IMG/VR virus record: IMGVR_UViG_3300033148_002173
Coordinates: 1-20,130 of that record
Source of the DNA: a virus
Reading direction: 5' to 3' (one strand)
DNA: 20,130 bases
Every line of letters starts with the position of its first letter. Within the stretch, counting starts at the first letter, position 1. The position numbers and the translations under genes were made by a program. Positions 9,160 through 20,130 of this stretch are shown one piece after another. Under the pieces are notes generated by a model. It was not told the origin of the DNA and did not search any database. It saw only the letters and a program-made list of their open reading frames with translations.

Positions 9160-10530
9160 ATGGCTACACCTATACCGTTACCATCAGGATTAAGCGGCGG
9201 AAAACGAACACCAAAGCAAAAAGAGGTGATCCGCAATGCTTACGTGCTTAATGATCAGGTGCCGACAATAAGAACTAGGCCAGTCGTTAAGTCTGTGGGG
9301 TCTTCTTTGGGGCGATGTAGAGGAATTGGCCTTTTTAGGGATGAACTTTATATGGTCTCAAATGACCGATTAGTAAAGATAACGCTAACTGACCCCAATT
9401 TACCCCCATTGAATAACTTAACTATTGATGACTTAGGCGAAATAGGTGGCGAAGCTGAGTGTCAATTAGAAGCGGGATTCACTGAACTATGTGTTATTGT
9501 GCGCGGCGGTGCGGGATACGTTTATAACGAAACTGATGGCCTTAGAGAGATAATCGACCCATCATACAAGCCTAGCGTGTATATTGAGTATGATCAGGGT
9601 AGATTCGTCTTTGTGCCGTCCTCTGGTGATCCGTTCTTTTGGTCATTGCTGCAAGATCCCGCAAATATTCTGGCAGTTAACTTTGCCGACGCTGAAGAAT
9701 TCCCAGACTTAAATAAGGTTGTATTCTATCGACGCAAGCAGATATATGTAGGTGGCGGGCGATCGTTTGAGAGAATAATATACAATTCAAAAATAGACAC
9801 ATATGCATCTATTGATGGTGCGAGTTCAGCTTTTGGGTTTATTGGGGGTAAAACCGATTATAATGAAACTTTTATGTTTTTAGGCGTTGGCGAAAATGGT
9901 GGCTTTTCAATTTACATGATGAGCGAGTCCCCAAAAAAAATATCGACGCCATCCGTTGATGAAATACTGGGAGAATATACCGCTGATGAGCTAAAAGATG
10001 TTACAGCGGCCTCATTTATGTGGGAGGGCGTGGAGTTTGCTTTATTTTATCTACCTAATGAAACGCTATGTTTTTACGGTGGCTGGTCTAAGTGGCACAG
10101 CGACACAAAAGAAACTACCACTTGGAGTCCTCAATACTTTCAATTTTGCTATGGTTATATTTTTACTGGTGATAAGGCTCTGCCTACTGTTGGCATTATC
10201 TCGGATGGTGAGAAAGAATATGGCAAAGATGTTGATGCGGGGTTTACCACATTTATAAAAACTAGCCCTAGGAATGGCACAATTATTAATAAAGTTTTTG
10301 CATCTATCAACCCTGGCGAATCAGGCAATGAGTCATCAATGGGTTTGTCAGTAAGTCGTGATGGTGTTATTTATGGGCCTACTGTTTATAAGTCGATCGG
10401 TGTAGTCGGAAACTACGCCCAAGAAATGTATTGGGGGCCGTCAATTATAAAAATGGGTGACTTTTGCGGCTTGGATTTTTCATGGCGCGGAGATATGCAA
10501 CTTACTTGTGATGGGGTGAGCTTCGAGTGA
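9160..10530 (+). CDS. packaged DNA stabilisation / tail hub protein, P22 gp10-like, 456 aa
   Basis: In P22, gp10 forms the hub below gp4 and closes the channel with the tail needle. This protein shows the family's beta-propeller-like pattern throughout: a short N-terminal segment then repeated strand motifs such as GIGLFRDELYMVSN, DQGRFVFVPSSGDPFFWS near 150-170, and YRRKQIYVGGGRSFERI near 191-207. Residues around 274-282 (EYTADELKD) match the conserved SYTAEE segment of gp10. Length is close to P22 (472 aa). It starts one base after the previous stop and ends overlapping the next GTG start (GTGA at 10527-10530). I consider the assignment firm. Confidence 0.85.
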   Translation: MATPIPLPSGLSGGKRTPKQKEVIRNAYVLNDQVPTIRTRPVVKSVGSSLGRCRGIGLFRDELYMVSNDRLVKITLTDPNLPPLNNLTIDDLGEIGGEAECQLEAGFTELCVIVRGGAGYVYNETDGLREIIDPSYKPSVYIEYDQGRFVFVPSSGDPFFWSLLQDPANILAVNFADAEEFPDLNKVVFYRRKQIYVGGGRSFERIIYNSKIDTYASIDGASSAFGFIGGKTDYNETFMFLGVGENGGFSIYMMSESPKKISTPSVDEILGEYTADELKDVTAASFMWEGVEFALFYLPNETLCFYGGWSKWHSDTKETTTWSPQYFQFCYGYIFTGDKALPTVGIISDGEKEYGKDVDAGFTTFIKTSPRNGTIINKVFASINPGESGNESSMGLSVSRDGVIYGPTVYKSIGVVGNYAQEMYWGPSIIKMGDFCGLDFSWRGDMQLTCDGVSFE

Positions 10531-10886
10531 GAATTTTACCTGATGTATCAGAACGAGCCGTAACAGAACAGGGGCTACTTACTGAGCAGACTAGATTATA
10601 TCTTTTAGAGCTTAGAGAAGTTTTTGAGGAATCAGGGTCTGGCATACAGAGCATTGTAGAAGGAGATGATATAGGTGTTGACAATACCGACCCTGATAAT
10701 CCAATTGTTAGCTATACCGGTACAGATTTCACTGACATTATTGCTCAACTACAAAAAACCTTTAGCTGGAAATTCATCCCCGCTGATGAAAACATAACGA
10801 TAGCGGATACGCAGCAGATGATTGTTGTGGATGGTATAACCATTGACGGAACGCTAGATATTGAAGGAGAGATTGCACTTATATGA
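10527..10886 (+). CDS. small phage structural protein, 119 aa
   Basis: The start is GTG at 10527, supported by GGGGTGAG at 10513-10520 and by the GTGA overlap with the gp10-like stop. The N-terminal helix (residues about 5-36) is followed by GVDNTDPDNPIVSY at 50-63, a module also present in the next gene. The C-terminus ends in MIVVDGITIDGTLDIEGEIALI-type repeats (residues 98-119), a pattern common in small phage proteins near the tail. In P22 the tail needle gene follows gp10, but this protein does not resemble a needle. Role probably structural, undefined. Confidence 0.55.
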   Translation: MRILPDVSERAVTEQGLLTEQTRLYLLELREVFEESGSGIQSIVEGDDIGVDNTDPDNPIVSYTGTDFTDIIAQLQKTFSWKFIPADENITIADTQQMIVVDGITIDGTLDIEGEIALI

Positions 10887-12160
10887 GCATTACGTTACTA
10901 GAAAAAGATAGTGGGGACGTACCAAACCCTCCTAGCGGAAAGCTAACTCTTTATGCAGATGAAGACGGGAAGCTATATATTCGTGAGCCTGATGGAACTA
11001 CAACCCCGATTGATGCAAACGCTGACACAATTTATAGTATTAGCTCAGAAATAACAGAAGATAGAACAGTTACATTAAATGGATCTGGGCTTACATTAGA
11101 CTTTACTGCAATAGATGGTTTGATTCAGTCTTATATAAGACTTAAAAGCACTCAGGCTGGGATTATCGTTAATCCAGATACTGGTGCTGGTGATTTAGCA
11201 TCATTATTACTGAATACGTCCGGTACAATTGCAGAATTTTTCAATGATATTGATGGTTCTGGGCTTAAATATGCATCAAACATTACCGTATGGGATGGTG
11301 ACACGCTAATAACTCAAGACAGGGGCGACGGAAGATACGCAACATCAGCCCAAGGTTTACTAGCAGATAGTGCGCTTCAAAACGGAGATAATGTAAGCGA
11401 GTTGGTAAATGATGCTGGCTATGTTACAAGCTCAGGGGGGGTAGTTGATTCAGTAACTGGTGACGGGGTAGACAATACGGACCCAGCTAACCCTATACTA
11501 AGCTTCCCAGATGCTGACCAGATAGACGACACTAGCACTACTAATAAATTTGTATCGGGTCCATTAATATCATTAATAAATAGCGCGCTTCAAAACGGAG
11601 ATAATGTTAGTGAGTTGGTTAATGATGCCGGTTATATAACATCAGAGAATGACACGCTTCAAGATGTTTATTCTAGAGGCTCGGACGTTGACATAGACAA
11701 CACAGAGGGAGCGCTAAAGCTTTCAAGGGGTGTCGGAATAACTGATGCGGCTTTTAATATAGTTCCAAGCACTGTAACTCCATCCACCAATTTAGCCGAT
11801 GGTGATTTTCATGTAGAAGACGGAACAATCTTCTTATATGACTTAGCAAGAACTAAGTTTTTAAGCTCTCACGAATACTCTTTGCAATTTGGTAAAAATA
11901 ACGGCGTGGGCAATGAATACTTAAGATTTGGCGGTGATGCCAGAGATGGAAATTCAGGGGCTACATTTCCATTTGATGTAACTATTGTTGCATTTACTCT
12001 ACAAGGCTCAAATAACACTGGGCAAAGTTTTGACATAGAAGTTGATGGCGTTGATGTTGAGACACTTGTCGCGGTTTCCAGCAAAATATCAGATGACACA
12101 TTGGATCTGGATGTTGACGCGGGGCAAACTATCAATTTTGTTAAACGAAGGAAAGTTTAA
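10883..12160 (+). CDS. fibre-like tail protein with repeated module, 425 aa
   Basis: The protein begins with a short motif (residues 17-42, PPSGKLTLYADEDGKLYI) typical of phage tail fibre N-termini. It contains SALQNGDNVSELVNDAGY twice (residues 163-180 and 234-251), a motif widespread in trimeric fibres, and GDGVDNTDPANPILSF at 193-208, which is shared with the preceding gene. Residues about 325-425 form a separate beta-rich C-terminal domain (SLQFGKNNGVGNEYLRFGG through DLDVDAGQTINF) like those ending some phage fibres and surface proteins. It sits where P22 has its tail needle but shows no long parallel coiled coil. I call it a tail fibre-like or needle-substitute protein; the exact role is not settled. 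Confidence 0.6.
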   Translation: MSITLLEKDSGDVPNPPSGKLTLYADEDGKLYIREPDGTTTPIDANADTIYSISSEITEDRTVTLNGSGLTLDFTAIDGLIQSYIRLKSTQAGIIVNPDTGAGDLASLLLNTSGTIAEFFNDIDGSGLKYASNITVWDGDTLITQDRGDGRYATSAQGLLADSALQNGDNVSELVNDAGYVTSSGGVVDSVTGDGVDNTDPANPILSFPDADQIDDTSTTNKFVSGPLISLINSALQNGDNVSELVNDAGYITSENDTLQDVYSRGSDVDIDNTEGALKLSRGVGITDAAFNIVPSTVTPSTNLADGDFHVEDGTIFLYDLARTKFLSSHEYSLQFGKNNGVGNEYLRFGGDARDGNSGATFPFDVTIVAFTLQGSNNTGQSFDIEVDGVDVETLVAVSSKISDDTLDLDVDAGQTINFVKRRKV

Positions 12161-12161
12161 T

Positions 12162-12544
12162 ATGTCACACACAGTAATTTTGAAGAATACAACAGCATCA
12201 CAGATAATTATTAGAGATCTTGCGGGTATGAGAATAGAAGCAAGCAGTCAATATGAAGCATCAAAGAACCGAACGCTCGCAGACATTCAGAATAGTGGCT
12301 AAAAACTGACATTAGCAGCGGCGATATAGTTGTAAACGATGGCTCGAATGATTTATCAGTATCTGACGCGCTGGAGCTAGTGACTTCTTATGATCCACAT
12401 TTTGCTGTCCAATATATCACGTTTAAATCGGCTACAAAGACTTGGCAGTTATCAATTAATGACGAGGGCGGGGTATCGGCTACAAAGACTTGGCAGTTAT
12501 CAATTAATGACGAGGGCGGGGTAATACCTACTGAGATTGTGTGA
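12162..12544 (+). pseudogene. frameshifted small tail-associated gene, broken at about 12296-12302
   Basis: The first frame starts at ATG 12162 (AAGGA at 12148-12152) and encodes MSHTVILKNTTASQIIIRDL and onward for 46 residues before TAA at 12300-12302. A second frame, shifted by -1, continues from about 12296 with LKTDISSGDIVVNDGSNDLS and runs to TGA at 12542-12544. The joined product has the shape of a known small phage protein type found after fibre genes. The second frame's own stop (12293-12295) and the first frame's stop pin the shift to seven bases (TGGCTAA). One missing base, for example turning GGC back into GAG-like coding, would restore one open frame. It may be a true mutation, an assembly error or, less likely, programmed frameshifting. 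The 3' part also carries the tandem duplication at 12428-12523. Confidence 0.6.
12428..12523 (+). repeat. perfect 48-bp tandem duplication, in frame
   Basis: The 48 bases at 12428-12475 (beginning TCGGCTACAAAGACTTGG) are repeated exactly at 12476-12523. The length is a multiple of three, so the shifted reading frame gains a second copy of the 16 residues SATKTWQLSINDEGGV. There is no divergence between copies, so the duplication is recent or an assembly collapse/expansion artefact. It lies near the 3' end of the frameshifted gene. Confidence 0.95.
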
Positions 12545-12571
12545 AATTATTCAAATATAATTAAATAACAA

Positions 12572-16850: not shown

Positions 16851-18908
16851 ATGTTTATTAGAACTGCACCATTTTGGTCGCTTCCATCTGGAGCAGCTGC
16901 AAAAGATTGCCTAGTGTATATTGGCCTAAAGAATACAGACCCAACAATACCCGCTAATAAACTTTCTGTTGTTAATGGTTATGGTGGGGCTGCTGTATCA
17001 AATCCATTTCATATAAATAGCGCAGGAAAGCCTCGAAATACTAATGGCGAAGCTATCAATCCTTATATATCAGAGAATGAATACAGCCTAACATTCACCT
17101 CTGAGAATGGCGCGTTTATTGACTCAATACCCGATATGAGATCAGACGCTGTGGGGGCTTCAGGTGGCGCGGGAACTCCCACTGTAGATGCTGTATTAAA
17201 TAACTTCACTGATGCGCTTACTTCAGACATGACAGATTTTAATATTGTATTTATACAATCGTTTGCTCCATCTTGGGAGGGCACTGGAAGCGGGCCTGTA
17301 GGGGGTTTTTATGCATACAGAACAGGCACTCTCGGCACGCCATCAACAGGAAACCCTGGCGCATTTTTTGACTCGGAAGGTAATCAATATAAGCCTGCTG
17401 ACTTTCAAAGATTGTATGCTGAAATGTTCGGGGCTATAACGGGGATAGGTAATGACTCCTCAGCGGCTATCACAAATATGGTTGAAGCTGCCATAAGTCT
17501 AGAAAAGCCTTGCTACTTTGATGGCGATATATATTACATAAATACACAATCAAATATACCGGCAGGCTACACTCTAATGAGCTTTTACGCTACTAAGATC
17601 GATGGAGATTTAGCGATGTATGGGAATGGTAATACCATCATTAAAAATACCACGCCCAACAATCAACAATACCTATTTTGGGCTGAAGATGTTGAAAACT
17701 TGCATATTGAGGGATTGATTTTAGATGCCAATTCTTCCTCTGACATTACTGGCGCGCTATATTGTGCGGGGGTAGCTAATGCTTATCTTGATTGCACGAT
17801 TAAAAATAGCGGCCCCTTATATTTGTCTGGATCAACAACAAGACAGACAGACAAGGTGCGCGGGAATTTAGTTATTGAATCATCACAAGGCTTTGCTATT
17901 AGCGGAAAGTCAGCAGGATTTAAAAGCTTGGATATGTCGGCGCTTATATTAACTTCATGCTCAAAAGGCGTTGAGGTTACAGCTATTGATACTGATGGAT
18001 TCGGTTACGGGATAACGGCGCCAGAAGTTAACATCAGCAACATATCTGGTGATTGCACCAATGAGTTATATAGCGTCATTAGTGGATCGGTTAATTTTGA
18101 CACAATAAAGGTTAATGCGGCTAGTATTTTCAGCTTTCCATTGACCACTATTGACGTTGATTTGATTTACGGAAATAGCATTGTATCTAATGGGGATAAG
18201 GTCTTTACTTGCACATCAACAACATCAGCGAAAATAAATAGTATTTTTGTCGATAATATTCACGCGAGAGGCGTTACTACTGCATTTGAGTTTGATAATG
18301 CATTGCAGGTTGTTGGCGATGTCGTTTTTAATTACGTTGATATTGATGGTACAACAAATGGAATGGTTTTGGGTGATGATACCCAGCTTGGAAATATAAC
18401 TATAAACGGCGGGACATTTGGAGCAGTATCAAATGGAATAGTTATAAATCAAACCAATGGCCAAAATCTTAGATTTACAGGCTTGAGCCTTGGCGGAACA
18501 ACTACCATTATCAATGACTCATCAAAAAGTAAAATCACATCAGTATGCACAGTTTATAATGGGCGCGCCGAATATGATGATAATGGTGGAAGCCCTATAT
18601 ACACGCTTTCTGGTTTAATCCCCTCCGATTGGTCTATAGTCTATGAGCGGGGTTCGGGTAACTATGGCTTTAGTGCAATATTAACGCACAATCTTGGTCA
18701 TAAAGATCTATCTGTTTCAGCGTCTGGGATTGATCCAAACGCCCCATCAGACAATACAGGGGCTTGCCAAGTTTATGCGGCGGGTTACGGTAACAAAAGA
18801 GATGATGATATAAGAATTGTATTCTCTAGAAATACGGGCGCAAGTTCCAGCAATGTTTCAAACACATCAGTGAGTTTTGATTTCACAGTCACTTCAGCAT
18901 GGAATTAA
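16851..18908 (+). CDS. tailspike with P22-type head-binding domain, 685 aa
   Basis: The tailspike trimer binds and often cleaves surface polysaccharide. Residues 1-97 match the head-binding domain that attaches spikes to the gp4/gp10 tail: VYIGLKNTDPTIPANKLSVV, then NPFHINSAGKPRNTNGEAIN and YSLTFTSENG. Residues 98-200 are a linker with a repeated Gly/Thr-rich segment. From about 230 to 570 the sequence has the short, repetitive beta-strand pattern (VENLHIEGLILDANS, VNISNISG, IKVNAASIF) of a right-handed beta-helix. The C-terminal 115 residues form a separate beta domain, probably for trimerisation or substrate binding. I cannot identify catalytic residues or the sugar target. The gene is intact with a strong ribosome site. 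Confidence 0.85.
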   Translation: MFIRTAPFWSLPSGAAAKDCLVYIGLKNTDPTIPANKLSVVNGYGGAAVSNPFHINSAGKPRNTNGEAINPYISENEYSLTFTSENGAFIDSIPDMRSDAVGASGGAGTPTVDAVLNNFTDALTSDMTDFNIVFIQSFAPSWEGTGSGPVGGFYAYRTGTLGTPSTGNPGAFFDSEGNQYKPADFQRLYAEMFGAITGIGNDSSAAITNMVEAAISLEKPCYFDGDIYYINTQSNIPAGYTLMSFYATKIDGDLAMYGNGNTIIKNTTPNNQQYLFWAEDVENLHIEGLILDANSSSDITGALYCAGVANAYLDCTIKNSGPLYLSGSTTRQTDKVRGNLVIESSQGFAISGKSAGFKSLDMSALILTSCSKGVEVTAIDTDGFGYGITAPEVNISNISGDCTNELYSVISGSVNFDTIKVNAASIFSFPLTTIDVDLIYGNSIVSNGDKVFTCTSTTSAKINSIFVDNIHARGVTTAFEFDNALQVVGDVVFNYVDIDGTTNGMVLGDDTQLGNITINGGTFGAVSNGIVINQTNGQNLRFTGLSLGGTTTIINDSSKSKITSVCTVYNGRAEYDDNGGSPIYTLSGLIPSDWSIVYERGSGNYGFSAILTHNLGHKDLSVSASGIDPNAPSDNTGACQVYAAGYGNKRDDDIRIVFSRNTGASSSNVSNTSVSFDFTVTSAWN

Positions 18909-18932: not shown

Positions 18933-19217
18933 ATGTTTATAGATATACAAAAAATGGCGGGGGGCACACCGCTGCCAAGGGGCAAGGTGCATATAGGCGC
19001 AGTAGCCACTAACCCTGTTGATAGCCCTATATCAGTATATTCTGATTATAATTACAGCACCCCAATATCTACGCCACTATTTTTAGACGCTAATGGCTTG
19101 CCTGTTGATGCTGATGGCGCTCAAGTTAATCTATATTTTAATGCAGACTTTACTATCCAGTTAACTGATGAGTACGCTGCTAACTTTTATCTAACCCCAC
19201 CAACAGTATCGGTATAA
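18933..19217 (+). CDS. stand-alone head-binding-like domain protein, 94 aa
   Basis: The protein repeats the plan of the tailspike head-binding domain in the preceding gene: a start MFI..., then GKVHIGAVATNPVDSPISVY, then TPLFLDANGLPVDADGAQVN and a strand FTIQLTDEYAANF. It stops after this domain with no beta-helix. It could be an adaptor that binds the tail and recruits another receptor-binding subunit, or the remnant of a lost second spike. The 24-base gap before it has no clear terminator, so it is probably cotranscribed with the tailspike. The similarity is seen by direct comparison of the two proteins; the adaptor role is inference. Confidence 0.7.
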   Translation: MFIDIQKMAGGTPLPRGKVHIGAVATNPVDSPISVYSDYNYSTPISTPLFLDANGLPVDADGAQVNLYFNADFTIQLTDEYAANFYLTPPTVSV

Positions 19218-19541: not shown

Positions 19542-19772
19542 GTGGCTATAATTGAAAAAGTTATATCTAAAGTCATAACATCACCAGGCTTTAACGGTAA
19601 GCCTTGGCTTGCGCCCTCTTCCGAAACAGATCAGGTAATAGCTTTTACATCAGGATCAAACGGTAACGGATATTGGTTCGAGATGCACATTGATGGCATC
19701 AAGATTGAACAGGTTCAAAGGTCTCAAAGATCTTCAAGCAGCTATGTCGCCGGTTCATCAATATCGATGTGA
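19542..19772 (+). CDS. hypothetical small beta-rich protein, 76 aa
   Basis: The start is GTG at 19542 with AAAGGG at 19528-19533 upstream. The protein has alternating strand-like stretches (KVISKVITSPGFNGKPW, YWFEMHIDGIKIEQVQ) and a Ser-rich end. Its stop overlaps the next frame's GTG (GTGA at 19769-19772). The two frames might instead be halves of one protein split by a single-base -1 shift, because the second frame is open over the last 63 bases of the first (19709-19772). Function unknown; location suggests a tail-end component. Confidence 0.45.
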   Translation: MAIIEKVISKVITSPGFNGKPWLAPSSETDQVIAFTSGSNGNGYWFEMHIDGIKIEQVQRSQRSSSSYVAGSSISM

Positions 19773-19957
19773 CAGACGAGAATGATTCCGCAACTACTGA
19801 TTTCATAACTGATGCAACTTGTCTTGATAGAGAATATACGGACTGTGTTAATGGATCAGTCACATCGACTACAGTTTCATTTTTTATGCGCGCACTTAAT
19901 AATGACTCAGACCAAAATAACGCAGATACCTGGACTGCAATTTGGAGGAAGGGATAA
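19769..19957 (+). CDS. hypothetical small protein or 3' half of a split gene, 62 aa
   Basis: The frame starts at GTG 19769, overlapping the previous stop by four bases, and ends with TAA at 19955-19957, overlapping the next ATG (TAATG). The product is acidic with two Cys (residues 18 and 26) and a strand-rich second half (STTVSFFMRALNN). No independent ribosome site is clear, which fits either coupling or a frameshifted single gene with the preceding frame. No family recognised. Confidence 0.4.
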   Translation: MTDENDSATTDFITDATCLDREYTDCVNGSVTSTTVSFFMRALNNDSDQNNADTWTAIWRKG

Positions 19958-20130
19958 TGGCTTTAATGATAAGCACAGGCTCAACCGCCGCAGGGAAATA
20001 TACGAGATTATATGATCCAGATGTAGGTGATTTGCTTGTAATGCAAGGCGGTAGAAGCCCATCAGCGAGCAGCCAAACTATTACACTACCTTATGAAACA
20101 GAGGATGCAGCGTGGCTGGGAACCACAACA
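19957..20130 (+). CDS. partial CDS running off the window end, first 58 aa
   Basis: The ATG at 19957 overlaps the preceding stop (TAATG) and has a strong purine-rich ribosome site (GGAGGAAGGG at 19944-19953). The frame stays open to the end of the window with no stop, giving 58 residues that begin MALMISTGSTAAGKYTRLYD and include a strand-like TITLPYETEDAAWLG. It is too short to assign. It continues the run of small genes after the tailspike. Confidence 0.55.
   Translation, partial: MALMISTGSTAAGKYTRLYDPDVGDLLVMQGGRSPSASSQTITLPYETEDAAWLGTTT

Follow-up and report, generated by a model that had tools for sequence, protein, structure and literature searches.

A head-binding domain encoded on its own behind the tailspike gene of a P22-like phage: possible anchor for a second receptor-binding protein

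The head-binding domain (HBD) of the P22 and Sf6 tailspikes is the part that is seated on the gp10 tail hub. What, then, could be the role of a short open reading frame that lies directly behind the tailspike gene of a P22-like phage and appears to encode such a domain without a spike to go with it? The window in which this frame occurs, i.e. the whole stretch of DNA analysed here, corresponds to an entire IMG/VR record (20,130 bases) and covers the structural genes, about one half, of a short-tailed phage of the P22-like kind. The portals nearest to its own are those of Pseudoalteromonas phage H6/1 and Vibrio phages 234P9 and 340E47.2 (~32% identity), its coat protein shares 36-40% identity with the H6/1 and 234P9 counterparts, and its small terminase matches, at 49% identity over 96 residues, a stretch of P22 that overlaps the P22 small-terminase gene. 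All long core genes are intact. The phage recurs, since a 7,819-base contig from another metagenome (L003) is nearly identical to the window from terminase to gp10; that contig is without the tail genes. The gp10-like hub is the expected docking platform for head-binding domains. At the 3' end the tailspike gene is followed by the orphan HBD frame and by four small genes, P0003 to P0006, and the record ends inside the last of these. The features that are relevant here are:

9160 to 10530, plus strand: gp10-like tail hub (head closure Hc3), from alignment with annotated Hc3 proteins
10883 to 12160, plus strand: 425-residue fibre-like protein, the C-terminal tip of which resembles P0004
16851 to 18908, plus strand: tailspike, 685 residues (Pfam PF09008, 24.8 bits; P22 HBD in PDB, E 0.002)
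16851 to 17141, plus strand: HBD of the tailspike, residues 1 to ~97
18933 to 19217, plus strand: orphan HBD protein of 94 residues, whole domain only, ATG to TAA
19227 to 19538, plus strand: P0003, 103 residues, Shine-Dalgarno AAGAGG, in the frame of the orphan, candidate partner
19542 to 19772, plus strand: P0004, 76 residues, GTG start, resembling the C-terminal tip of the 425-residue fibre
19769 to 19957, plus strand: P0005, 62 residues, GTG start overlapping the P0004 stop (GTGA), -1 frame
19957 to 20130, plus strand: P0006, at least 58 residues, strong Shine-Dalgarno, cut by the record end

The initial annotation held that the 94-residue protein parallels the N-terminus of the tailspike and then ends, and this was borne out. 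With BLASTP, the orphan matches the N-terminus of its own tailspike only, residues 19-83 aligning with residues 22-88 at 26% identity (E 5e-4), and the local alignment score of 64 was reached by none of 5,000 shuffles, the best of which scored 53. Because this similarity is weak, an independent HBD profile was built from L008, Vibrio phage 234P9, P22 and nine IMG/VR relatives, with exclusion of both window domains and of anything found by using the orphan as query. Among 40,546 ORFs this profile recovered the orphan with an E value of 4.6e-5 and the tailspike N-terminus with 3e-8, and the orphan scored above all of 10,000 shuffles. A wider profile gave 6e-10, three of its members having been found with the orphan as query. 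The orphan covers profile positions 4-98 and its frame terminates at the domain boundary. With Pfam PF09008 it scored 15.1 bits (E 0.028) against a gathering cut-off of 24, which the phage's own tailspike barely passes; thus, Pfam alone would overlook the orphan, which is not a PF09008 member and is to be regarded as a homologue of the fold group only. Searches of the orphan against Pfam and PHROGs yielded weak head-binding matches only.

A structural model points in the same direction. AlphaFold2, given an alignment of 14 HBDs taken from the window and the fetched loci, returned a model of the orphan with a pLDDT of 79 and a pTM of 0.68. Its best Foldseek matches in the PDB were the HBDs of the P22 and Sf6 tailspikes (1lkt, TM 0.71, rmsd 2.0), followed by tail-complex chains of the cyanophages Pan3 and Pam1. 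VIA-align superposed the model on the P22 HBD (1lkt) with Z 12.2 and rmsd 2.3 over 87 residues, whereas folds outside the HBD group gave a Z of 4.3 at most. Apart from the orphan itself the alignment consists of 13 HBDs, so that the model partly inherits this fold; the sequence test is the independent one. The orphan resembles the HBDs of P22 tailspike gp9 (1lkt, 8eb7, 8tvr) and Sf6 gp14 (7sg7) in predicted fold (Z 11-12, ~24% identity), in motif order and length, and in its setting in a P22-like genome with a gp10-like hub. It differs from them in being encoded alone, in an N-terminal arm that is ~11 residues shorter and in falling under the Pfam cut-off. P22-type tailspikes carry HBD and spike body on one chain, whereas in the orphan a stop codon follows directly after the domain. 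The shuffle and profile tests, together with the structural Z comparison, rule out a chance resemblance. Both profile and model thus sustain the initial proposal of an orphan second head-binding domain right after the tailspike, and the frame encodes an entire HBD of the P22 tailspike type without any further part.

Among 41,408 ORFs from all the loci that were fetched, two HBDs occur in the window and in no other source, and the remaining complete ORFs with an HBD in these loci are all at least 372 aa long. Whole records of 50 coat-protein relatives contained an HBD in 21 cases, once per record and within a long open frame, except for one record where it is cut by the record end. The P22 HBD used as query against an isolate-phage collection matched 194 places in 192 records, with a second place in at most two of them, and in the annotated matches that were inspected the HBD is the N-terminus of a full-length spike. 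A scan with a narrower HBD alignment found a Klebsiella jumbo-phage spike as its sole match. Searches of viral contigs and/or isolate phages gave no useful relatives of the orphan, nor was it found in 295 genomes of the family to which the host MAG carrying the nearest terminase belongs.

The orphan shares ~30% identity with Klebsiella jumbo-phage spikes and 26% with the HBD of its own tailspike, which rules out a recent partial duplication of the tailspike N-terminus. Since the domain is complete and has kept its core motifs despite this low identity, it is old or foreign rather than fresh debris, either an old paralogue or an acquired gene.

The genes behind the orphan have coding-like signals. 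The orphan frame starts 24 nt after the tailspike stop, and the spacings from the orphan through P0003, P0004 and P0005 to P0006 are 9, 3, -4 and -1 nt. In-frame codon scores of the orphan and the downstream ORFs are 0.22-0.35 bits per codon, like those of the phage's other genes. Good Shine-Dalgarno sites and start codons precede P0003 and P0006; spike, orphan, P0003 and P0004 share one reading frame, and P0005, in the -1 frame, may be a coupled gene or the second half of a split domain. Neither Pfam nor PHROGs gave a match to the small downstream proteins. Viral contigs and/or isolate phages, searched with P0003, P0004 and P0006, yielded nothing useful, and P0003, P0005 and P0006 had no detectable relatives in the searches made. 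A weak match of P0004 in a Pseudohongiella MAG was taken as chance; the contig that bears it differs in length from the terminase contig.

Within the phage itself P0004 does have a counterpart. It resembles the C-terminal tip of the 425-residue fibre (BLASTP E 6e-5; shuffle p 6e-6), and the two proteins are reciprocal best matches among the 41,408 ORFs. The two can be aligned along most of P0004, but only ~28 residues carry the similarity, which concerns the first part only of the fibre-tip domain. The fibre tip modelled together with P0004 gave no usable structure (pLDDT 40), and searches for fibre-tip relatives among viral contigs and/or isolate phages gave nothing useful. This resemblance gives at least one of the downstream genes the look of a receptor-binding part, and the sequences suggest that receptor-binding tip domains are shared within this one genome.

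The region directly after the fibre gene has peculiarities of its own. A small ORF (MSHTVILKNTT..DIQNSG, 12162-12302) stops at 12302, and an apparent continuation (TDISSGDIVVNDGSNDLS..., region to 12546) lies in the -1 frame beside a run of five A. The region 12162-12546 may represent a small fibre-associated gene that has been interrupted, an error of sequencing, or a pair of genes. It contains an exact 48-bp tandem duplication (12427-12523) with 100% identical copies, encoding SATKTWQLSINDEGGV twice, which is the sole tandem repeat of the window.

With regard to function, we tentatively favour, at somewhat less than even probability, that the orphan anchors a second receptor-binding protein (RBP), one that is composed of several gene products and encoded downstream. 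The orphan would be produced as a separate late protein and would trimerise, the trimer occupying gp10 hub sites of the same kind as those used by the spike. It would then hold, non-covalently, a receptor-binding part made of one or more of P0003 to P0006, so that the virion would bear two kinds of side appendage, namely the covalent spike with its beta-helix and a modular structure made by several genes. In favour of such a role are the identity of the domain by sequence and predicted fold, the end of the frame at the domain boundary, the coding-like codon usage and tight packing of the orphan and its followers, and the likeness of P0004 to the phage's own fibre tip. The isolated P22 HBD, of 104 residues, folds and crystallises alone (1lkt), which also fits a free anchor.

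A further argument comes from Vibrio phage 234P9 (OZ196835; L005 19263-22797), where an HBD-bearing spike is directly followed by a second protein without an HBD, a beta-helix protein as read from its sequence motif. Thus, in a relative the place after the spike holds second receptor-binding genes. The arrangement is complementary: the second gene of 234P9 encodes a beta-helix protein without HBD, and that of the window an HBD without spike body. The second spike of 234P9 may need another anchor or may dock on the first spike.

Precedents for uncoupled anchors exist in phages with other anchor types. In K1-5, gp37 is a free trimeric adapter for a second RBP, and in KP34-type phages a first RBP truncated to ~307 residues serves as the anchor for another RBP (PMC6872550). 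The orphan is like gp37 of K1-5 and SP6 and the truncated first RBPs of KP34- and KP32-type phages in being a free tail-binding domain beside receptor-binding genes (PMC6872550). However, the anchors of K1-5, KP34 and KP32 are of the T7 type, have ~300 residues and include a T4gp10-like docking domain (PMC6872550), whereas the orphan is P22-type, has 94 residues and displays no extra docking domain; it is not an adapter of the K1-5/KP34 type and the likeness is one of working principle only. Similarly, the side spike of phage B2 consists of two proteins, gp48 and gp49 (PMC11654681), and corresponds in principle to a side appendage of more than one gene product, but B2 belongs to the Schitoviridae and has a G7C-like spike instead of a P22-type HBD.

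Several observations weigh against an anchoring role. Apart from the missing docking domain, the gene is represented by a single sequence, and searches of viral contigs and isolate phages disclosed no relative that carries the orphan together with its downstream neighbours, so that the gene pair that the initial annotation proposed to look for in related phages was not recovered. P0004 and P0005 are perhaps a split or broken gene, and the fibre-associated ORF at 12162-12302 also looks interrupted. The similarity between P0004 and the fibre is strongest over 28 residues, the fibre-tip model has a low pLDDT, and the gene cluster runs off the record end. The idea of an adaptor for a second RBP, which the initial annotation put forward, thus gains from codon usage, packing, the P0004-fibre likeness and the 234P9 spike pair, and loses from the lack of a relative with the same genes.

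The other suggestion made at that time, a remnant of a lost spike, is a serious rival and nearly as likely as an anchor. Recombination would have removed the body of a second tailspike, leaving the attachment part, followed by small genes that are unrelated to it. The domain would then be made without a dedicated job, or would linger as a place where some later receptor-binding module could dock. Exchange of spike genes takes place at the HBD end, and Klebsiella phages possess 'truncated' RBPs that retain the attachment part only (PMC6872550). The failure to find a conserved relative of the orphan in the searches made fits a remnant as well, and the fibre modules of this phage appear to be in flux, with an interrupted small ORF and the 48-bp duplication. 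Mildly against a remnant are the completeness of the domain, the retention of core motifs at 26% identity to the tailspike HBD, the preserved coding-like codon usage and the frame end at the domain boundary.

It is unlikely that a single longer second RBP is spread over the orphan and the downstream ORFs, either broken by mutation or by an assembly or sequencing error, or read through. The common frame from spike to P0004, with P0005 in the -1 frame, could be taken as a sign of this, as could the restriction of the P0004 similarity to the first part of the fibre-tip domain. However, a single chain would have to run through stop codons at three places (TAA, TAG, TGA). Stop-codon recoding is ruled out, as TAA, TGA and TAG each end other genes of the window, and a programmed -1 shift from P0004 into P0005 was rejected since their overlap contains no canonical -1 slippery heptamer. 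The translation signals of P0003 and P0006 and the intactness of all long core genes also argue against fragments of one protein. Least probable is a free HBD that carries no other protein and competes with the spike for hub sites, thereby lowering or setting the number of spikes per virion or capping empty sites. This would agree with a protein matching the hub-binding part and nothing more, encoded just downstream of the spike and, given the 24-nt gap, probably co-transcribed with it. It has to our knowledge no precedent among P22-type phages, the isolates inspected having the HBD at the head of a full spike, and it leaves the downstream cluster unexplained.

A functional free domain would mean that anchor and receptor-binding body can be separated in P22-type phages, much as adapters allow in phages of the T7 type. 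This would provide a route to two host-recognition parts per tail, and would explain part of the spread of the P22-type domain among unrelated spikes. Should the orphan indeed be an anchor, it would belong to a modular multi-gene receptor-binding device, the anchor of which is a separate gene. That a P22-type hub carries covalent spikes together with a second appendage of separate tiny proteins held by a free HBD gene is proposed with more reserve, as a conceivable though rather doubtful arrangement.

Other tail-binding domains occur among the relatives. In L010, L012, L013, L023 and similar aquatic relatives, proteins of 266-293 residues are encoded shortly after the gp10-like gene, and their N-terminus is another tail-binding domain, as in Pseudoalteromonas phage H6/1. 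The orphan weakly matches this H6/1-type domain (E 0.003), which hints at a common superfamily.
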